64,000 nt of DNA, from the NCBI RefSeq assembly GCF_013033355.1, contig NZ_WQDY01000002.1:248001-312000 (forward strand), given 5' to 3'. A program made the translations under genes and the position numbers. Shown here piece by piece: positions 16,576 through 35,083 of this stretch. The notes below the pieces were generated by a model that did not search any database, was not told the DNA's origin, and saw nothing but the letters and a program-made list of their open reading frames with translations. Each line of letters begins with the position of its first letter. The stretch's first letter is position 1. Source of the stretch: Ruegeria lacuscaerulensis. Lineage in GTDB: Bacteria > Pseudomonadota > Alphaproteobacteria > Rhodobacterales > Rhodobacteraceae.

Positions 16576-17355
16576 TCAAACTGCCCGTTCGACCATCATC
16601 TTTTTGATTTCGGCAATCGCCTTGGCCGGGTTCAGACCCTTGGGGCAAGTCTTGGCGCAGTTCATGATCGTGTGGCAACGATACAGTTTGAAGGGATCTT
16701 CCAACTCGTCCAGACGTTCACCCGTGGCCTCATCGCGGCTGTCGATGATCCAGCGATAGGCGTGCAACAATGCTGCGGGCCCAAGGTAGCGATCGCCATT
16801 CCACCAATAGCTGGGGCACGAGGTCGAGCAGCTTGCGCACATCACGCACTCATACAGACCATCCAACTTTTTGCGATCTTCGATGGACTGCTTCCACTCT
16901 TTCGCAGGGCGGTTGGTCTTGGTTTCCAGCCATGGCATGATCGAGGCATGCTGAGCATAGAAATGCGTCAGGTCCGGTATCAGGTCCTTGACGACCGGCA
17001 TATGCGGCAGCGGGTAAATCTTAACATCGCCCTTGATCTCATCCATGCCATAGATACAGGCCAACGTGTTGATCCCGTCGATGTTCATCGCGCAGGATCC
17101 GCAAATGCCTTCGCGGCAGGACCGGCGGAAAGTCAGGGTTGGGTCAATCTCGTTCTTGATCTTGATCAGCGCGTCCAAAACCATTGGACCACAGTTGTCC
17201 ATATCAACGAAATAGGTATCAACCCTAGGATTCTGACCATCATCCGGGTTCCAGCGATAGATCTGAAACTTGCGCACGTTGGTTGCGCCATCCGGCTTGG
17301 GCCAGGTTTTTCCGGTTGTGATCCGGGAATTCTTTGGCAGGGTGAGCTGTACCAT
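16576..17355 (-). CDS. sdhB: Succinate dehydrogenase iron-sulfur subunit
   Basis: Complex II electron-transfer subunit, 259 residues from ATG 17355 (GAGG 6 bases upstream; the longer frame to 17430 is not supported). [2Fe-2S] ligands are Cys80, 85, 88 and 100; the [4Fe-4S] and [3Fe-4S] ligands lie in Cys170-180 ([11 protein letters not shown]) and Cys227, 233 and 237. Unusually it is not contiguous with sdhA: a glycosyltransferase gene on the other strand and a bidirectional terminator lie between, so it must have its own promoter in 17356-17518. Confidence 0.95.
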
Positions 17356-17440
17356 TTCCGACCTCGCTAAATTCCTGCGCATTGATACACTCAGAACCGC
17401 TGAAAGCCAACCATTTAGCCTTGAAAACACCCAATAAAAT

Positions 17441-17518: not shown

Positions 17519-18574
17519 ATGCAGACCAAAGTCGCCAATTTCCCATACGGCACGAAGAACCCTTATCAGGATATGATGTATTCGGCTTGCAGCCCCGAAT
17601 TCACTTTGTCCGCCCCACGCGAGGTTTCGTTTGCGCAATTCGCAAACCCCGATTTCAGAGCAGCACACAGGATTATTCATCTTCATTGGGATGACCGCCT
17701 GTTCCGTATCGTCGAATCCGATGACACAAGTCCGCTTTTTCATGAAGTCAAACGAGGGCTAGAGCGCTACCGGGAAAACGGCGGGCGTCTGATTTGGACC
17801 ATCCACAACCAGGCAGCGCATTCGCAGGCCGAGCTTACCGACAATTTTCGGCAGATTCGCCAGCAACTGACTCAGATGTCTGACCTGATTCATGTGCATA
17901 CACCCCACGCGGCGCGTCACATGATCTCGGAATATGGTGCAGATTCAGAGAAGATTCGATTGATTCCCCATCCAAGTTACCTTGGCGTCTATGAGCCGAC
18001 AGAGGTCACGCTTAACCGGTCAGCGCCCGCAAACCAACCGATCCGATTCCTGGCTTTTGGTGCAATGCGTGGAAATCGTGACCTGGACAAGCTGCATGAA
18101 GTCGCCCGCAAATTGACCAATCGCGGACATTCGTTCGAGCTATCGGTGGTCGGGAAAGTCTTTCGCTCGGGACGCAGGCTAATGCGTCGAATGCAGGTGA
18201 ATCCGAATGTGACCGTGATTTCCGACCGTGTTCCGGACGACGAAATTCCCACGATTTTCTCGCAATCGCATGTCTACACCTTGCCATCAATGAACACGTT
18301 TACGTCGGGAACTGCCATGCTGGCCCAAACCTTCGGGCTTCCGATCATTGGCCCGGACATTGATCCACACAAACACACGACCCCCGAAGCCTGTCATGAC
18401 CTGTTGTATCCGGCGCAAAACCCGCGCGGATTGATCCGGACGATGATGCGGGTGATGGAAATGTCAAAAGACGAACTGAACGAAAAACGCCGAGCCTGCT
18501 TGCAATTCGCTGTTGCCCGTCAACCAGCCCATATTTCTGGTCAGTTGAAGCAAGCTCTTGCAGAACTCACATAG
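17519..18574 (+). CDS. Glycosyltransferase, GT4-like (GT-B fold)
   Basis: 351 residues with no membrane helix. The N-terminal half has IIHLHWDDRLF and LIWTIHNQAAHS; the C-terminal half has a Rossmann-like segment (IRFLAFGAMRGNRDLD), VVGKVFRSG, and the late donor-binding region HVYTLPSMNTFTSGTAM, as in GT-B family 4 enzymes. Donor and acceptor are unknown. It stands alone on the plus strand inside the sdh locus. Confidence 0.72.
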   Translation: MQTKVANFPYGTKNPYQDMMYSACSPEFTLSAPREVSFAQFANPDFRAAHRIIHLHWDDRLFRIVESDDTSPLFHEVKRGLERYRENGGRLIWTIHNQAAHSQAELTDNFRQIRQQLTQMSDLIHVHTPHAARHMISEYGADSEKIRLIPHPSYLGVYEPTEVTLNRSAPANQPIRFLAFGAMRGNRDLDKLHEVARKLTNRGHSFELSVVGKVFRSGRRLMRRMQVNPNVTVISDRVPDDEIPTIFSQSHVYTLPSMNTFTSGTAMLAQTFGLPIIGPDIDPHKHTTPEACHDLLYPAQNPRGLIRTMMRVMEMSKDELNEKRRACLQFAVARQPAHISGQLKQALAELT

Positions 18575-18641: not shown

Positions 18642-20447
18642 TCAGAAAGTCCGCGCCTTCGGTGCGATTTTCTTGAGGCTGATTCCGCCTTCGGCTTCGG
18701 TCGTCAGCGGGTCCGCAATCACAGGACGATAGCTGAGCTCAACCTTATTACCCTCGACCCGGCTGACGGTGTGAACACGCCAGTTCTCATCATCGCGCTC
18801 GGCAAAATCCTCATGGGCATGGGCACCACGAGATTCCTTACGCGCTTCGGCTCCGACGATCGTTGCCAATGCGCTCGGCATCAGGTTGCCCAGTTCCAGC
18901 GTCTCCATCAGGTCGCTATTCCACACCAACGAGCGGTCGGTGACTTTCAGATCATCCATCTTAGCCGCAATGGCCGTCATCTTTTCGACGCCTTCGGCCA
19001 TGGTCTTGGCGGTACGGAATACTGCCGCGTCAGCCTGCATGGTTTTCTGCATCTCAAGCCGCAGGTCGGCGGTCGGAATCGAACCATTGGCGTTGCGTGC
19101 CGCATCGAACCGGTCAAAAGCCTTATCGACCGACGCCTGATTCAGCACCGGATTCGCAGCCTCGGCATCTACAACCTTACCGGCCCGGATCGCGGCCGCG
19201 CGGCCAAAGACCACAAGGTCGATCAAAGAGTTCGAGCCCAAGCGGTTTGCCCCATGAACTGAGGCACAACCGGCCTCGCCCACAGCCATCAGGCCGGGAA
19301 CCACGGCGGTTGGGTTATCGGCGGTGGGGTTCAGAACCTCGCCCCAATAGTTTGTGGGGATACCGCCCATGTTGTAGTGAACCGTCGGCAGAACCGGGAT
19401 CGGTTCCTTGGTGACATCCACGCCCGCAAAGACGCGCGCAGATTCTGAAATGCCCGGCAAACGCTCGGCCAGCGCCTCGGCAGGCAGGTGGCTGAGGTTC
19501 AGGTGGATATGGTCGCCATTGTCACCGTGGCCACGGCCTTCGCGGATTTCCATCGTCATCGAACGGCTTACATAGTCACGGGGCGCCAGGTCTTTGTACT
19601 GGGGCGCATAGCGCTCCATAAACCGCTCGCCTTCCGAGTTGGTCAGGTATCCGCCCTCTCCTCGCGCGCCTTCGGTGATCAAGCAGCCCGAACCGTAGAT
19701 GCCGGTGGGGTGGAACTGCACGAACTCCATATCCTGCAAGGCCAGGCCTGCACGGGCCACCATGCCGCCGCCGTCGCCGGTGCAGGTATGGGCCGAAGTT
19801 GCGCTGAAATAGGCGCGACCGTAACCGCCGGTCGCCAGCACAACCATCTTGGCATTGAAAACATGCATCGTGCCGTCGTCCAGCTTCCAGCAGACGACGC
19901 CCTGACACTGCCCATCGTCGGACATGATCAGGTCGATGGCGAAGTATTCGATGTAGAACTCGGCGTTGTTCTTCAGCGATTGCCCGTACAGAGTATGCAG
20001 GATCGCGTGGCCGGTCCGGTCAGCAGCCGCACAGGTGCGCTGCACTGCAGGGCCTTCGCCAAATTCGGTGGTGTGGCCACCGAACGGGCGCTGATAGATC
20101 TTACCTTCCTCGGTCCGGCTGAAAGGCACACCGTAGTGCTCCAGCTCGTACACGGCCTTGGGCGCCTCACGCGCGAGGTATTCCATTGCGTCAGTATCGC
20201 CCAGCCAGTCCGAGCCTTTGACGGTGTCGTACATGTGCCACTGCCAGTGGTCCGGACCCATATTCGACAGTGACGCGGCAATGCCGCCCTGCGCCGCCAC
20301 TGTATGCGAGCGGGTCGGAAAAACCTTGGTTACACAGGCGGTGCGCAACCCTTGTTCGGCCATGCCCAGGGTGGCCCGCAGACCCGCCCCACCGGCGCCG
20401 ACAACGACCACGTCATATTCGTGCGTTTCGTATTCGTATGCAGCCAT
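18642..20447 (-). CDS. sdhA: Succinate dehydrogenase flavoprotein subunit
   Basis: 601 residues, normal length. Dinucleotide-binding [15 protein letters not shown] near the N-terminus, [10 protein letters not shown] with the histidine for covalent [23 protein letters not shown], and catalytic-region [20 protein letters not shown]. It oxidises succinate to fumarate at the cytoplasmic face. It is preceded by sdhC and sdhD with short gaps and followed by the bidirectional terminator, so sdhB is excluded from this transcript. Confidence 0.96.
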
Positions 20448-20465: not shown

Positions 20466-20837
20466 TTAGAGGGCAATGCGGGCGATGGCGAATAGGCCCG
20501 CCGCAGCCGCGCCGTAGGACAAGCAGGTGGTCAGGATGATCAGGACCTTCTCGGTCGTGCCGTGGGTATAATCCTCAAGCATCACCTGCGCCCCTTCGGC
20601 GAAGTGTTTCATGCCGATCACAAGCGTCAGTGCCGCAACAATTGCCGGGAACGGGCGCGAATAGTAGTCCAGCACCACATCATAAGGCTGCCCCAGCATG
20701 GGACCAAAGGTGAAGATGAACAGCGGAACAAGGATCAGCAATGCCACCGAGCTGACCTTCATCCGCCAGAAATGAGCTGTGCCTGCCTTGGCCGATCCAA
20801 GGCCACTGGCGCGTTTGCGGTCTGTCAGATAACGCAT
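20466..20837 (-). CDS. sdhD: Succinate dehydrogenase membrane anchor subunit
   Basis: 123 residues with three hydrophobic segments (SVALLILVPLFIFTFGPML; IVAALTLVIGMKHF; ILTTCLSYGAAAAGLFAIA). HFAEGAQVMLEDYTHG in helix II contains residues expected near haem b and quinone. It lies 12 bases after sdhC and 18 before sdhA. Confidence 0.92.
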   Translation of the reverse strand: MRYLTDRKRASGLGSAKAGTAHFWRMKVSSVALLILVPLFIFTFGPMLGQPYDVVLDYYSRPFPAIVAALTLVIGMKHFAEGAQVMLEDYTHGTTEKVLIILTTCLSYGAAAAGLFAIARIAL

Positions 20838-20849
20838 GTCTGGCCTCCT

Positions 20850-21236
20850 TTACGCAACGATGATCAGGGTCAGCAGGGTCAGGACAACCGACCCGATGAC
20901 AACCGCCCAACCCAGCTTCTCCGCGACCTGCAACTCCAGCCCCTTCGCGTTGTCCCAGATCAGGTGCCGAGCACCTGCCAGCGTGTGGTACCACAACCCC
21001 CACAGGGACAGAGCCATCACAAGATCACCCAAAACCGATGTCAGCCACCAATTCGCACGCTCGTATGCTTCGGGCGAGGATGCGGCGGCCAGAAACCACC
21101 ATACGATCAGCAAGGCCGCCACGATCATCGCGTTCCCGGTGATACGGGTCAGAATAGAGGTGACCGAGGTCAACTGCGGGCGATAGATCGACAGATGCGG
21201 CGATAACGGGCGATTGCCCCGGTTAACATCGGCCAT
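20850..21236 (-). CDS. sdhC: Succinate dehydrogenase cytochrome b556 subunit
   Basis: 128 residues from ATG 21236, chosen for the AAGGAG 6 bases upstream and the family start RPLSPHLSIYRPQLTSVTSI. Three transmembrane helices; the histidines in WYHTLAGARHLIWD are the haem b ligand region. First gene of sdhCDA. Its promoter region carries the tandem GTGATCAC element at 21349-21383. Confidence 0.93.
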   Translation of the reverse strand: MADVNRGNRPLSPHLSIYRPQLTSVTSILTRITGNAMIVAALLIVWWFLAAASSPEAYERANWWLTSVLGDLVMALSLWGLWYHTLAGARHLIWDNAKGLELQVAEKLGWAVVIGSVVLTLLTLIIVA

Positions 21237-21348
21237 GGCGGCTCCTTTTCGGTTGGCTACCGAACGTTTTACTGTTTTTTGCGACTCTGTCACGTGCTGC
21301 AGATGCAAAAAAGCCTAATATTGGAGCAAAATGACGCATATTTGAGAA

Positions 21349-21383
21349 TTGTGATCACACAAAATAATGACGTGATCACAAAT
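21349..21383 (-). promoter_or_regulatory. Tandem GTGATCAC operator upstream of sdhC
   Basis: Two perfect palindromes GTGATCAC at 21351-21358 and 21372-21379, repeated at 21 bp (two helical turns). In the direction of sdhC the element reads ATTTGTGATCAC, a 13-bp AT-rich spacer, then GTGATCACAA. 114 bases separate the near palindrome from the sdhC start codon. The same arrangement precedes sucC. A dimer-of-dimers regulator, probably an activator from its distance, is inferred. Confidence 0.75.
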
Positions 21384-27324: not shown

Positions 27325-27361
27325 ATTTGTGATCACACCAGAAAATACTGTGATCACAAAT
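27325..27361 (+). promoter_or_regulatory. Tandem GTGATCAC operator upstream of sucC
   Basis: ATTTGTGATCAC, 13-base spacer, GTGATCACAAAT, with palindromes at 27329-27336 and 27350-27357 (21-bp period). 109 bases separate the near palindrome from the sucC ATG, and it is about 70 bases before the likely -10. It matches the sdhC element in palindrome, flanks, spacing and distance. Confidence 0.78.
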
Positions 27362-27466
27362 GCTGAAAATCTTTGCTAAAAACCGCGTCGGCGGCAAAAA
27401 AACCTTTAAACTTGTCCCCTAGACACCCCTATAACGATCTAATCGTAGTCAGACGGGACAATTTCG

Positions 27467-28660
27467 ATGAATATTCACGAATACCAAGCCAAGGCTCTTC
27501 TTCGCAGCTATGGCGCTCCGGTCTCCGAAGGTCGCGCGGTTCTGCGCGCCGAGGAAGCCAAAACCGCAGCCGGTGAACTGGATGGCCCCCTTTGGGTTGT
27601 CAAAGCCCAAATCCACGCAGGTGGCCGCGGCAAGGGCTCGTTCAAAGAGGCCGACGCCGGTGAAAAGGGCGGTGTCCGTCTGACCAAATCGGTCGAAGAG
27701 GCCGCCGAAGAAGCCAAAAAGATGCTGGGCCGCACGCTGGTTACACATCAGACCGGCCCCGCGGGCAAGCAGGTCAACCGCATTTATATCGAGGCCGGGT
27801 CCGGCATCGAGCGTGAGTTGTATCTGGCGCTGCTGGTGGATCGCCAGACCAGCCGCATTTCCTTTGTCTGCTCGACCGAAGGCGGCATGGACATCGAAGA
27901 AGTGGCCGAGTCCACGCCCGAGAAAATCCTGTCCTTCTCGGTGGACCCTGTGACCGGCTATCAGGCCTATCACGGTCGTCGCATCGCCTTCTCGCTGGGT
28001 CTGCAAGGCGCGCAGGTCAAGCAATGCGTCAAGCTGATGGGTCAGCTGTACCAAGCCTTCGTCGAGAAGGACATGGAGATGCTGGAGATCAACCCGCTGA
28101 TCGTGGCCGAAGGCGGCGACCTCAAGGTGCTGGACGCCAAGCTGGGCTTTGACGGCAACGCGGTTTACCGCCACCCCGACATCGCTGAACTGCGCGACGA
28201 GACCGAGGAAGACCCCAAAGAACTCGAAGCCTCGAAATACGACCTGAACTACATCGCGCTGGATGGTGAGATTGGGTGCATGGTGAACGGTGCCGGTCTG
28301 GCGATGGCGACCATGGACATCATCAAACTGTATGGTGCCGAGCCTGCCAACTTCCTCGATGTAGGTGGCGGAGCCACCAAAGAGAAAGTGACCGAGGCGT
28401 TCAAGATCATCACCTCGGACCCGAACGTCAAAGGCATTCTGGTCAACATCTTCGGCGGCATCATGCGCTGTGATGTGATTGCCGAAGGCGTAGTCGCCGC
28501 GGTGAAAGAGGTCGGCCTCAAGGTTCCCCTGGTCGTGCGTCTGGAAGGCACGAACGTTGAGAAGGGCAAAGAGATCATCAACACCTCTGGCCTGGACGTA
28601 ATCGCAGCGGACGACCTGAAAGACGGTGCCGAGAAGATCGTGAAGGCCGTCAAAGGCTGA
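27467..28660 (+). CDS. sucC: Succinyl-CoA synthetase beta subunit (ADP-forming)
   Basis: 397 residues, ATP-grasp enzyme of the TCA cycle. [20 protein letters not shown] start, HAGGRGKG nucleotide loop, EINPLIV metal site, and C-terminal [11 protein letters not shown]. First gene of the suc operon, downstream of the tandem operator. Confidence 0.97.
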
Positions 28661-28742: not shown

Positions 28743-29624
28743 ATGGCAGTCCTCATCGACGAAAATACCAAAGTGATCTGTCAGGGCTTTACCGGCTCGC
28801 AGGGCACATTCCACTCTGAACAGGCCATTGCTTATGGCACCAAGATGGTCGGCGGCGTGACCCCCGGCAAAGGCGGGATGACCCATCTTGACCTGCCCGT
28901 GTTCAACTCGGTCCACGAGGCCAAGCATGTGACCGAAGCCAATGCCTCGGTGATCTATGTGCCACCGCCCTTCGCAGCTGACTCGATCCTCGAAGCGATT
29001 GACGCCGAGATGGAAGTGATCGTCTGCATCACCGAAGGCATCCCGGTTCTGGACATGATGAAGGTAAAGCGCGCGCTGGAAGGCTCCAAATCGCGCCTGA
29101 TCGGCCCGAACTGCCCCGGTGTCATCACGCCGGATGCCTGCAAGATCGGCATCATGCCCGGCCACATCCACAAGCGCGGCTCGGTCGGCGTTGTGTCTCG
29201 TTCCGGTACCCTCACTTATGAGGCTGTCAAACAGACCACTGACGTGGGTCTGGGCCAGTCAACCTGCGTCGGCATCGGCGGCGACCCGATCAAAGGCACC
29301 GAACATATCGACGTGCTGGAGTGGTTCCTGGCCGATGACGAGACCCACTCGATCATCATGATCGGTGAGATCGGTGGCTCGGCCGAGGAAGAGGCCGCTC
29401 AGTTCCTGGCGGATGAAGCCAAGAAGGGCCGCAAAAAGCCGGTTGCCGGTTTCATCGCTGGGCGCACAGCCCCTCCGGGCCGCCGCATGGGCCACGCGGG
29501 CGCGATCGTCGCTGGCGGCAAAGGCGGTGCCGAGGACAAGATCGAAGCCATGCGCTCGGCCGGTATCGTCGTGGCAGAAAGCCCGGCAACGCTGGGTGAG
29601 GCCGTGCTGGAAGCGATTGGGTAA
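28743..29624 (+). CDS. sucD: Succinyl-CoA synthetase alpha subunit
   Basis: 293 residues. N-terminal CoA-binding [16 protein letters not shown] and the active-site histidine region [23 protein letters not shown] ribosome site. Works with SucC to make ATP from succinyl-CoA. Followed by a GC-rich repeat and an unexpected AT-richer ORF before sucA. Confidence 0.97.
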
Positions 29625-30075: not shown

Positions 30076-30618
30076 ATGACCTTCTCCGATGCCATCCGCA
30101 CCTGTTTCTCCAAGTTCTTCACGTTCTCTGGTCGCGCCTCGCGGCCTGAATACTGGTTCTTTTTCCTGTTCATCGTGATCTGGAGCCTCATCGCAGGTTT
30201 CATCGACCTTCAGTTTTTCACGCAAGTCGCCACGACCGAGACCGAAACGACGAAATCCGTCGCTGCCACATCGAGTCAACCGGTGCAGAGCATTGTCAGC
30301 CTAATCGTCTTCTTCCCGCATCTCGCGGTCGCATGGCGGCGAATGCATGATACCGGACGCAGCGGGCTTTATGCTCTGTTTCCGCTGCTCCTGATGGCCG
30401 GGGCCGTTGCGGTGCTGGTGTTCGGTATCGGCATGGCGTCCAGCTTCCAGCATGGCGGCAACCTGGATGTCCTGTTCACCCGCGCGACTTTACTGATTGT
30501 TATACCCACCCTTCTAATCCTGATGATCTCGCCGCTTCTGGTGCTGTGGTGGCTGACCCGCCCCAGCCAGCCAGGCACCAACAAATACGGTCCCAACCCA
30601 TATGAGGTAACCCAATGA
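30076..30618 (+). CDS. DUF805 inner-membrane protein
   Basis: 180 residues. FTFSGRASRPEYWFFFLF at the start is diagnostic of DUF805, with four hydrophobic segments and WRRMHDTGRSGLYAL between helices. Its stop overlaps the sucA start by 4 bases (ATGA), so it is translated with sucA. Function unknown. Confidence 0.88.
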   Translation: MTFSDAIRTCFSKFFTFSGRASRPEYWFFFLFIVIWSLIAGFIDLQFFTQVATTETETTKSVAATSSQPVQSIVSLIVFFPHLAVAWRRMHDTGRSGLYALFPLLLMAGAVAVLVFGIGMASSFQHGGNLDVLFTRATLLIVIPTLLILMISPLLVLWWLTRPSQPGTNKYGPNPYEVTQ

Positions 30619-33572
30619 CCGAGCACTCGCCCAACTCCGCCTTTCATGCCTCAAGCTTCATGCAGGGGCACAACGCCGAATACCTGGAGCAGCTTTACGC
30701 TCAATACACGCGCGACCCGAACGCGGTTGATGCGGCCTGGGCCGAGTTCTTTCGCGCCATGGGCGATGCCTCGCCGGATGTGCAGCGCGAGGCCGAGGGG
30801 CCATCCTGGGCGCGCACCGACTGGCCGCCGATGCCGGCGGATGACCTGACCGGGGCGCTCACGGGCGAGTGGGCCGAGATTGACGCCAAGGCGGCGGGCA
30901 ACAAGATCAAAGATAAGGCGGCGGCCAAGGGCGTTGAGGTCAGCGAAGACCAGATCAAGCGCGCGGTGCTGGACAGCCTGCGGGCCTTGATGCTGATCCG
31001 GGCCTATCGGATTCGGGGCCATCTGGCCGCCGATCTCGACCCGCTGGGGATGCGCGCCGCAACAAACCACCCCGAGCTGGATCCAAAGACCTATGGCTTT
31101 ACCGAGGCCGACATGGACCGGCCTATTTTTATCGACAACGTGCTGGGCCTGCAGATGGCCTCTATGCGGCAGATCGTTGATATCGTGAAACGCACATATT
31201 GCGGCACCTTTGCGCTGCAATACATGCATATCTCGGATCCAGAACAGGCTGCTTGGCTGAAGGAACGGATCGAAGGTTATGGCAAGGAAATCGCGTTCAC
31301 CAAGGAAGGACGCAAGGCGATCCTGAACAAGATGGTCGAGGCCGAGGGCTTCGAGAAATTCCTGCACGTCAAATACATGGGCACCAAGCGGTTCGGCCTG
31401 GACGGCGGTGAGGCTCTGATCCCCGCGATGGAACAGATCATCAAGCGCGGCGGCGCGCTGGGTGTGCGTGACATTGTTATCGGGATGCCGCACCGAGGCC
31501 GTCTTAACATTCTGGCCAACGTGATGCGCAAACCCTATCGCGCGATCTTCAACGAATTCCAGGGTGGCAGCTTCAAGCCCGAGGATGTGGATGGCTCAGG
31601 CGATGTAAAATACCACCTCGGCGCCTCGAGCGACCGCGAGTTTGATGGCAACAGCGTTCACCTGTCGCTGACGGCCAACCCCTCGCACCTTGAGGCGGTG
31701 AACCCCGTCGTTCTGGGCAAGGTCCGCGCTAAGCAGGACCAGTTGAAAGACAGCGAGCGTACCGCTGTGATGGGCATCCTGCTGCATGGCGACGCGGCCT
31801 TTGCTGGTCAGGGTGTCGTGGCCGAAGGGTTTGGCCTGTCGGGTCTGCGCGGTCACAAAACCGGCGGCACCATGCATATCGTAGTGAACAACCAGATCGG
31901 GTTCACCACTGCGCCGCATTTCAGCCGCTCCAGCCCCTACCCCACCGATATCGCGCTGATGGTTGAGGCACCGATCTTCCACGTGAACGGTGACGACCCT
32001 GAGGCCGTGGTTCATGCCGCCAAGGTTGCGACCGAGTTCCGCCAGAAGTTCCACAAGGATGTGGTCATCGACATCTTCTGCTACCGCCGGTTTGGTCACA
32101 ACGAGGGCGACGAGCCCATGTTCACCAACCCGATCATGTACAAGAAGATCAAGACACATAAGACGACCCTGTCGCTGTATACCGAGCGTCTGGTCAAAGA
32201 CGGCCTGATCCCCGAAGGCGAGATCGAGGATATGAAAGCCGCCTTCCAGGCGCAGCTGAATGACGAGTTCGAAGCCGGGAAAGACTATAAGCCCAACAAG
32301 GCCGACTGGTTGGATGGGCGCTGGTCACATCTGGACAAGAATAAAGACGAATATGTCAGGGGCGATACCGCGATCACGCCAGAAACTATGGCCGAGGTCG
32401 GCACAGCCCTGACCCATGTTCCTGCGGATATTGCTTTGCACAAAACAGTGGGCCGTCTTTTGGACCACAAAAAGCAGATGTTCGACAATGGCAAAGGCTT
32501 TGACTGGGCTACAGGTGAGGCGCTGGCCTTCGGCTCGCTTTTGACCGAAGGCTATCCGGTGCGTCTGTCTGGCCAAGACGCGACACGCGGGACGTTCAGC
32601 CAACGCCATTCTGGCTTTGTCCATCAGGAAACAGAAGAGCGGTACTATCCGCTGAACAACATCCGGGCCGGTCAATCACAGTACGAGGTGATCGACTCGA
32701 TGCTGTCGGAATACGCGGTGCTTGGGTTCGAATATGGCTATTCGCTGGCAGAACCCAACGCGCTGACCCTGTGGGAAGCGCAGTTTGGCGACTTTGCCAA
32801 CGGCGCGCAGATCATGTTCGACCAGTTCATCAGCTCGGGCGAAAGCAAATGGCTGCGCATGTCTGGTCTGGTCACGCTGCTGCCGCACGGGTTCGAAGGG
32901 CAAGGCCCCGAACACTCGTCAGCGCGTCTGGAACGGTTCCTGCAGATGTGTGGTCAGGACAACTGGATCGTGGCGAACTGTACGACGCCTGCGAACTATT
33001 TCCACATCTTGCGCCGTCAGCTGCACCGGACCTTCCGCAAACCGCTGATCCTGGTGACGCCGAAATCGCTGTTGCGGCACAAGCTGGCCGTCAGCACGGC
33101 TGCGGATTTCACCACCGGCTCCAGCTTCCATCGGGTGCTGTGGGATGACGCGCAGCATGGCAATTCTGACACCAAGCTGGTCAAGGATGACAAGATCAAG
33201 CGAGTCGTTCTGTGTTCGGGCAAGGTCTACTATGACTTGCTGGAAGAACGGGACGCGCGCGGCATCGACGACGTCTATCTAATGCGGATCGAGCAATATT
33301 ATCCTTTCCCGGCGCACTCGCTGATCAACGAGCTTGAGCGTTTCAAGGGCGCCGAGATCGTCTGGTGTCAGGAAGAGCCCAAGAACCAGGGTGCCTGGTC
33401 CTTTATCGAACCCAACATCGAATGGGTTTTGACCCGGATTAAAGCAAAACATACACGGCCCCGCTATGTCGGCCGCGCTACTTCGGCCTCGCCCGCGACG
33501 GGTCTGGCCAGCCAACACAAAGCCCAACAAGAAGCGCTGGTGAACGAAGCGCTGAGCATTGAAGGAAAATAA
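30615..33572 (+). CDS. sucA: 2-Oxoglutarate dehydrogenase E1 component
   Basis: 985 residues, thiamine diphosphate-dependent decarboxylase. The N-terminal [20 protein letters not shown] segment, [14 protein letters not shown], the ThDP-site [13 protein letters not shown] and [10 protein letters not shown], and C-terminal [16 protein letters not shown] are all present. GAGG 7 bases upstream of ATG. Its TAA overlaps the first possible sucB start. Confidence 0.97.
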
Positions 33573-33574
33573 TG

Positions 33575-35083
33575 ATGTCCATTGAAGTTCGTGTTCCCAC
33601 GCTGGGCGAGTCGGTCACCGAGGCCACAGTTGCAACCTGGTTCAAGAAACCGGGTGACGCAGTGGCCGTGGATGAAATGCTGTGCGAGTTGGAGACTGAC
33701 AAAGTCACAGTCGAAGTTCCTGCCCCCGCAGCGGGCGTGATGGGTGAGATCGTCGCGGCCGAGGGTGAAACCGTTGGCGTTGATGCCTTGTTGGCCACTA
33801 TCACCGCAGGCGAAGGCGCAGCCGCTGCTCCGGCACCGGCGGCGGCGGCCCCGCCAGCTGAGGCTCCGGCCGCATCGGGTGGCAGCGTTGACGTAATGGT
33901 CCCCACTCTGGGCGAATCCGTGACCGAGGCGACCGTGTCCACATGGTTCAAACAGGTCGGCGACGCCGTCGCGCAGGATGAAATGCTGTGTGAGCTGGAA
34001 ACCGACAAAGTTTCGGTCGAAGTTCCGGCCCCCGCCGCAGGTGTTCTTGCGGAAATCACCGCGCCGGAGGGCACGACCGTTGACGCATCGGCGAAACTGG
34101 CCGTGATCTCGGGCGCAGGTGCTGTTGCGGTTCCGGCGGCTGCTCCGGCAGCGGCGGCCCCTGCAGCTGCGGCCACGGGCAAGGACGTGTCCAACGCACC
34201 TTCGGCTGAGAAAGCGATGGCACAAGCCGGTCTGTCGGCTGATCAGGTCACCGGCACCGGCCGCGACGGCCGCATCATGAAAGAGGACGTGGCCCGCGCC
34301 GTGGCAACCGCTGCGGCCCCTGCGCCCGCCGCGGCTCCGGCTCCGGCCCCTGCGCCGCGCGCGCCAGTGGCCGCTGATGACGCCGCGCGCGAGGAACGGG
34401 TCAAGATGACCCGCCTGCGCCAGACCATCGCCAAGCGCCTGAAAGACAGCCAGAACACCGCCGCAATGCTGACCACTTATAATGAGGTGGACATGACCGA
34501 GGTGATGGCCCTGCGCAACCAGTACAAAGACCAGTTCGAGAAGAAGCACGGTGTGCGTCTGGGCTTTATGTCCTTCTTCACCAAGGCTTGCTGCCACGCG
34601 CTGAAAGAAGTGCCCGAGGTGAATGCCGAGATCGACGGCACCGACATCGTTTACAAGAACTTCGTCCATATGGGCGTGGCCGCCGGTACCCCGACCGGTC
34701 TGGTGGTTCCGGTCATCCGCGATGCTGACAGCATGTCCTTCGCGGCGATCGAAAAAGCCATTGCCGAAAAGGGCAAACGTGCTCGTGACGGCAAGTTGTC
34801 GATGGCGGAAATGCAGGGCGGCACCTTCACCATCTCGAACGGTGGTGTTTACGGCTCACTGATGTCCTCGCCGATCCTGAACCCCCCGCAATCGGGTATT
34901 CTGGGCATGCATAAGATCCAGGATCGCCCGATGGCGATCAATGGTCAGGTTGTGATCCGTCCGATGATGTATCTGGCGCTGTCCTATGACCACCGGATCG
35001 TCGACGGCAAAGGCGCTGTGACCTTCCTAGTGCGCGTGAAAGAAGCGCTGGAAGATCCGCGCCGCCTGCTGATGGATCTTTAA
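33575..35083 (+). CDS. sucB: 2-Oxoglutarate dehydrogenase E2 (dihydrolipoyl succinyltransferase), two lipoyl domains
   Basis: 502 residues from ATG 33575 (ATG 33572 also possible; AAGGA at 33562-33566 serves either). Two near-identical lipoyl domains (about 1-78 and 107-182), each with the lipoylated Lys in ELETDKV, joined by Ala/Pro linkers; then an E1/E3-binding domain ([17 protein letters not shown]) and the catalytic domain ending in [17 protein letters not shown]. coli SucB has one lipoyl domain; two are usual in related alphaproteobacteria as far as I recall. Confidence 0.96.

Follow-up and report, generated by a model that had tools for sequence, protein, structure and literature searches.

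Tandem palindromes upstream of sdhC and sucC in Ruegeria lacuscaerulensis as probable operators of the GntR-family regulator AkgR

Introduction

The closest described system to the DNA element analyzed here is the AkgR regulon of Rhodobacter sphaeroides, which was reportedly set out by Imam et al. in mBio in 2015. The element is a tandem pair of the palindrome GTGATCAC located upstream of sdhC in a 64,000-nucleotide stretch of Ruegeria lacuscaerulensis DNA (contig NZ_WQDY01000002.1, positions 248,001 to 312,000; hereafter the window), and a matching pair lies upstream of sucC, 6 kb away. We take RSP_0981 of R. sphaeroides to be AkgR, in agreement with the content of the two papers that treat these names, and RSP_1663 to be CceR.

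GTGATCAC is given among the AkgR sites and AkgR is called an activator (PMC6365646), and the GntR-family regulator RSP_0981 is predicted to control sucCD, sdh and the alpha-ketoglutarate dehydrogenase genes (PMC4344238). The LacI-family protein RSP_1663 is assigned the motif [A/G/T]GTT N6-8 AAC[A/C/T] and has sdh and mdh among its predicted targets in R. sphaeroides (PMC4344238). CceR is likewise described as a LacI-family regulator (PMC5507952), and its regulon in R. sphaeroides, but not in Paracoccus denitrificans, contains succinate dehydrogenase, 2-oxoglutarate dehydrogenase and fumarase (PMC11323563). The motif, the regulator and the regulon targets are already known.

Results

We found exactly two perfect GTGATCAC-N13-GTGATCAC pairs in the window, one upstream of sdhC (21351..21379, minus strand, with cores at 21351-21358 and 21372-21379) and one upstream of sucC (27329..27357, plus strand, with cores at 27329-27336 and 27350-27357), both defined by pattern scan and conservation. 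The period is 21 bp in each, the cores starting at 21351/21372 and 27329/27350. The window holds six copies of GTGATCAC against 1.24 expected, a count reached in none of 100 shuffles, and no shuffled window contained a pair with 10-16 bp between the sites. These counts confirm the initial annotation of the sdhC element as two perfect palindromes with a 21-bp period and a 13-bp spacer. The remaining copies (551 and 11510) are within long coding frames that resemble an ABC-transporter ATPase and an acyltransferase. Across the whole genome (G000; 37 contigs, 4.64 Mb), the sdhC and sucC pairs were the only perfect pairs at a spacing of 3-33 bp, which bears out, well beyond the window, the earlier statement that no further pair was noticed. 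The same whole-genome search with a reversed control pattern returned 0 pairs, and all other N13 pairs found when mismatches were permitted showed at least two of them. Both the palindrome and the location of the genome's only two perfect pairs, before sdhC and sucC, are as expected of the AkgR regulon.

The nearer palindrome is separated by 114 bases from the sdhC ATG (21236, minus strand) and by 109 bases from the sucC ATG (27467). Both elements have ATTT on their left side in the reading direction of the gene; on the right side, AATT is present at sdhC and AAAT at sucC. The proposal that the two elements share one design is nearly but not exactly right for the flanks. That the sdhC element was 'copied' in front of sucC is not shown by this likeness, which is expected from one shared binding site. 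A single-site scan of the genome with TGTGATCAC gave 43 oriented matches, seven of them from the two pairs. Apart from the pairs and a site at akgR described below, the matches were mostly within open frames; the intergenic ones were near genes reading like hflX, a YHS-domain gene, a threonine-phosphate-decarboxylase gene and others, and we make no target claim for them.

The loci of 80 relatives were gathered by an mdh scan, and sucC was found in 77 of them (three without a match) and sdhC in 69 (11 without a match). All 77 sucC genes were preceded by a perfect pair (71 with a 13-bp and 6 with a 12-bp spacer), as were 65 of the 69 sdhC genes (50 with a 13-bp and 15 with a 12-bp spacer). In an enlarged genome set, which may hold one species more than once so that its rows are not all independent, spacers of 13 bp outnumbered those of 12 bp by 74 to 18 at sdhC and by 105 to 9 at sucC. 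The sdhC pair of L064 (Palleronia) has one mismatch in one core, and no sdhC site was found within 400 bp, even with one mismatch, in L052 (Aliiruegeria) or in L053 and L066 (Tropicimonas). Despite the missing sdhC operator, these last three loci retain both the sdhC GTGACA box and the sucC pair. Outside the cores, the outer flanks prefer TTT and AAA and the inner neighbors A and T, and the A/T fraction of the spacer is 0.57-0.59 versus 0.46-0.48 around it. An extra single GTGATCAC was seen 57-205 bp upstream of the sdhC pair in 15 of the 65 loci with a pair (400 bp examined; for example L016-L019); it is exactly 57 bp upstream in four Ruegeria loci and in L023. Two records in this set, titled 'Nocardioides marinus' (L028) and 'Maritalea mobilis' (L055), fall among the Leisingera and Roseibacterium rows of the tree and look misnamed.

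We also examined 76 pair regions (L215-L290) taken from the pairs listed, several with other spacings being left out. A gene was assigned for 71 of the 76 (not for L224, L252, L259, L287 and L288), and 68 of these 71 regions lie before sdhC (31, of which 27 were assigned by script and four by reading) or sucC (37). The other three comprise one at fumC, one before a GntR gene (L289) and one inside a coding frame (L290). The pair is thus neither absent upstream of these genes in relatives nor spread at random, the two outcomes that the initial annotation had named as counting against it. The fumC region, from one genus (L221; G042:C16:227993-228621), has a perfect GTGATCAC-N13-GTGATCAC 124 bp before a start resembling that of fumarate hydratase, making fumC in that genus a third citric-acid-cycle gene with this type of element.

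The sdhC and sucC pairs might act as one unit if AkgR bridged them into a DNA loop, as the distance of ~4-14 kb between pairs in many of the genomes listed would allow; tandem sites could favor tetramers. However, both pairs persist on separate large contigs in G001, G063 and G024, and in G093 two pairs are 89 kb apart (by position; genes not identified). These genomes with distant pairs make looping between the operators quite improbable.

Out of 28 GntR domain matches in the R. lacuscaerulensis genome, of which 25 exceed the family cut-off, one gene (G000:C36:100580-101224) has GTGATCAC 8 bp before its ATG. Its product combines GntR and FCD domains, and the best sequence match among solved structures is Escherichia coli McbR (4p9f, E = 1e-19), with which we know of no targets in common. 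The own-gene site was present in 27 of 27 orthologs parsed from the 30 best fetched; in 25 of the 27 it precedes the first in-frame start by 8-10 bp, in L172 and L180 it is closer, and it is upstream in L177 and L194 too. Six of seven further distinct orthologs parsed also have the site, the exception being that of Cereibacter johrii, a sister of R. sphaeroides. The C. johrii ortholog adjoins sdhB, behind a gene resembling a metallopeptidase, and what looks like the same gene precedes the regulator in R. lacuscaerulensis as well. This synteny agrees with the order of the locus tags RSP_0974-6 (sdh) and RSP_0981 (the GntR gene). No GTGATCAC was found in the locus of a 37% paralog of the regulator (L146).

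The initial annotation had named AkgR and CceR as candidates; AkgR fits the pairs and the CceR motif does not. In support of CceR, a LacI-family central-carbon regulator, RSP_1663 is predicted to regulate sdh and mdh (PMC4344238), and the R. sphaeroides regulon of CceR includes succinate dehydrogenase and 2-oxoglutarate dehydrogenase (PMC11323563). However, the motif [AGT]GTT-N6-8-AAC[ACT] (PMC4344238) is not contained in GTGATCAC, and the regions preceding sdhC, mdh and sucC, both in the window and in L091, gave no strict match to it. Since even sdhC of L091, which is a sister of R. sphaeroides, was without a match, genuine CceR sites may escape so strict a pattern. CceR may act on the sdhC and sucC genes too, via other sites. 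As the binder of the pairs, CceR was set aside on the motif mismatch, and we consider that assignment very improbable.

We compared the distribution of the regulator with that of the pair in 120 genomes of the family. A close ortholog, with an E of 2e-83 or lower, was present in 103 and lacking in 17. A perfect pair was present in 102 of the 103 genomes with the ortholog versus four of the 17 without (Fisher p = 3.7e-13, kinship uncorrected), the spacing having been searched at 3-33 bp in 80 genomes and at 12-13 bp in the other 40. The sole ortholog-bearing exception (G040) has both the sucC and the sdhC pair, with one core mismatch each. A sample of 289 genomes of the class contained four with a close homolog (E of 1e-50 or lower), all of the same family, and a 12-13 bp pair was found in those four and in two others (L289 and L290, the latter pair being inside an open frame). 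Regulator and site are therefore found together, as expected of the AkgR regulon. In the genome of L289, from another alphaproteobacterial family, a 13-bp-spaced GTGATCAC pair precedes a GntR gene (L199; G266:C189) whose product is ~30% identical to AkgR; the palindrome may thus characterize a broader GntR subfamily.

The predicted -35 box of sdhC, GTGACA (21288..21293, minus strand), was found by promoter scan 57 bases from the operator and is strongly conserved in an alignment of 65 relatives; the predicted -10 box, TAAAAC (21266..21271, minus strand), follows after a spacer of 16. The pairs lie upstream of the predicted promoters, and for this reason a function at the RNA level was set aside. 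The gap was taken as the distance between the end of the operator and the start of the NTGAC box, the box being picked by its -10 match and not by distance, within 30 to at most 110 bp and at least 25 bp from the start codon. Gaps could be scored in 89 of 97 promoters (85 of 93 in a first set and 4 of 4 added later) and were 47-48 bp (5 promoters), 57-60 bp (73, a class that includes the 57 bp of the window), 69-70 bp (8) or 79-80 bp (3), with none between. The gap class changed at least nine times on a protein tree of the 60 loci with a value; for example, it is 70 bp in Celeribacter persicus versus 59 in two congeners, and 80 in L090 versus 59 in its sister L047. If each of nine changes were free to take any value in 40-90 bp, the probability that every one came within 1.6 bp of a whole-turn position would be ~2e-5 (a post hoc calculation). 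The operator-promoter distance at sdhC thus shifts by whole helical turns, as expected of a phase-dependent upstream activator promoter, and this points to a phase-locked upstream activator.

At sucC, the predicted -35 region, TTTAAAC (27405..27411, plus strand), is 47 bases from the operator and is taken from the sequence and a two-block model of 114 promoters from relatives; the predicted -10 box, CTATAA (27429..27434, plus strand), was read from the sequence. The model placed 92 of the 114 promoters in one offset class, 8 one turn nearer and 14 elsewhere. In the main class, ~47 bp separate the operator and the -35 region, a turn less than in the main sdhC class. The operator-to-start distance is also ~10-12 bp shorter in six of the eight nearer-class promoters (96-99 versus a median of 110) and is 103 in L094. 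It is usual (108) in L088, so that the nearer-class placement of this promoter is probably wrong. The evidence for helical phasing is weaker at sucC than at sdhC. The A/T content between the operator and the -35 box peaks about every 10 bp at both genes, and the amplitude at 10.5 bp was 5.9 and 5.6 versus shuffle maxima of 1.9 and 1.7, in a null that shifts rows independently and ignores relatedness; the best period at sucC was 9.5-10.

The genomes are related and most have the same gap class, as would be seen if the pair were functionless and kept by shared descent of the region alone. We give this explanation almost no weight, because the cores are fixed while flanks and spacers vary, no pair occurs in 13 of the 17 relatives without a close ortholog, and the repeated changes of gap class were by whole turns. 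The positions of the sites also bear on the sign of control. Many GntR/FCD proteins are repressors, and the site of akgR is at the gene start, a typical repressor position; AkgR might accordingly repress, not activate, at both promoters. Against this, the sdhC and sucC sites are well upstream of the predicted -35 boxes and phase-locked at sdhC, which suits activation, and AkgR is called an activator (PMC6365646), making repression at both promoters unlikely.

The gene neighborhoods were compiled from the open reading frame (ORF) list and by reading of the translated frames. On the minus strand, sdhC (20850..21236; ORF list and tblastn to relatives) is the first gene of an sdhC-sdhD-sdhA run, followed by sdhD (20466..20837, longest frame) and sdhA (18642..20447), both assigned by reading. 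A frame on the opposite strand that resembles a glycosyltransferase (17519-18574) separates sdhA from sdhB (16576..17430, minus strand; by reading, longest frame, real start probably internal), and sdhB may therefore need its own promoter. The window scan found no GTGATCAC between sdhB and sdhA (17519-18574). On the plus strand, sucC (27467..28660; ORF list) is followed by sucD (28743..29624), sucA for the E1 component of 2-oxoglutarate dehydrogenase (30615..33572) and sucB for the E2 component (33572..35083), all three assigned by reading; sucA and sucB are presumably transcribed from the sucC promoter.

Discussion

The binder of the pairs is very probably the GntR regulator AkgR, and we consider it likely that both elements are operators of this GntR/FCD-family protein, encoded at G000:C36:100580-101224, in the geometry proposed here. 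The earlier claim that one DNA-binding protein coordinates sdh and suc is supported by conservation, by co-occurrence with the GntR gene, by the own-gene site and by helical phasing; the binding of dimers on one face, which was part of that claim, would fit. With paired sites two turns apart, two neighboring AkgR dimers would share one face of the helix, ~85-120 bp upstream of the point where transcription is predicted to start. From there AkgR would activate sdh and suc through contact with RNA polymerase, for instance with the alpha C-terminal domains, across the phased A/T tracts. Direct contact with the polymerase, or a fixed bend towards it, would demand just such a constant phase to the sdhC -35 box through whole-turn shifts. 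The position upstream of the promoter, together with the published activator label, favors activation of sdh and suc. A single AkgR dimer over the start region of akgR would repress this gene, autorepression being suggested by the lone site at the akgR start. The signal is probably a carboxylate of central metabolism. We infer the polymerase contacts, the sign of control and the ligand.

We lean, with less assurance, towards a broader proposal in which AkgR has two modes set by operator geometry: a locked upstream pair would activate the 2-oxoglutarate-to-fumarate segment of the citric acid cycle via promoters whose A/T tracts are in helical phase, a single dimer at its own gene would repress, and rotational phase, not distance, would be what is selected. 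The natural whole-turn jumps suggest that selection keeps the phase and not the distance.

Several observations weigh against this interpretation. At sdhC, no TGAC box was found in range in 8 of the 97 promoters, a second, lower-scoring box was present in 10 of 93, and the second box of L246 gives a gap of 59 rather than 70, which is a different class. At sucC, the scores of the eight promoters placed one turn nearer (4.6-14.2) overlap those of the 14 outliers (-6.1 to 8.8; the median of the 92 is 11.3). The A/T period was judged against shuffles alone, and phase-locking would also fit a bending protein in place of direct contact. The own-gene site is absent in Cereibacter, and the case for orthology between the R. 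lacuscaerulensis gene and RSP_0981 is built on the order of locus tags and on sister-species synteny rather than on a comparison with the RSP_0981 sequence. A pair is present without a close ortholog in G019, G033, G096 and G114, of which G033 carries a 47% homolog and is 74% complete and G096 is 77% complete. G061 has the ortholog, but all of its pairs have spacers of 5 or 14 bp and no gene assignment. Finally, the CceR regulon of R. sphaeroides covers succinate dehydrogenase, 2-oxoglutarate dehydrogenase and fumarase (PMC11323563), so AkgR need not be the only regulator.

The geometry yields a sharp prediction on activation by a GntR/FCD protein from ~85-120 bp upstream: it should be lost on insertion of a half turn and survive that of a full turn. 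The perfect pair with its 20-21 bp period also offers a simple rule for calling AkgR targets across the Rhodobacteraceae, and comparison of the pairs exposes lineage changes such as the loss at sdhC in Tropicimonas and the pair at fumC in one genus.

We found no description of the pair spacing rule, the phase locking or the akgR own site in the open literature surveyed, in so far as it was available, the primary AkgR paper being outside it. The present locus and the AkgR regulon of R. sphaeroides have in common a GntR-family regulator, the palindrome GTGATCAC and the targets sdh, sucCD and 2-oxoglutarate dehydrogenase. They differ in the 20-21 bp pairing, the phasing and the own-gene site, which are not in the available content of PMC4344238 and PMC6365646 and which the primary paper may have. 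In the deoxyribonate cluster of Pseudomonas simiae, GTGATCAC similarly precedes a GntR-like gene, at 47-40 bp from its start, and the product of this gene is 32% identical to AkgR; that cluster serves another pathway, and one palindrome is mentioned in the part of the paper available (PMC6365646). Compared with the class I CRP promoters of E. coli, the present promoters involve a GntR/FCD protein and paired sites, and the phasing is deduced from natural whole-turn shifts, not from engineered spacing. At those CRP promoters, the activator functions only from certain helical phases upstream.
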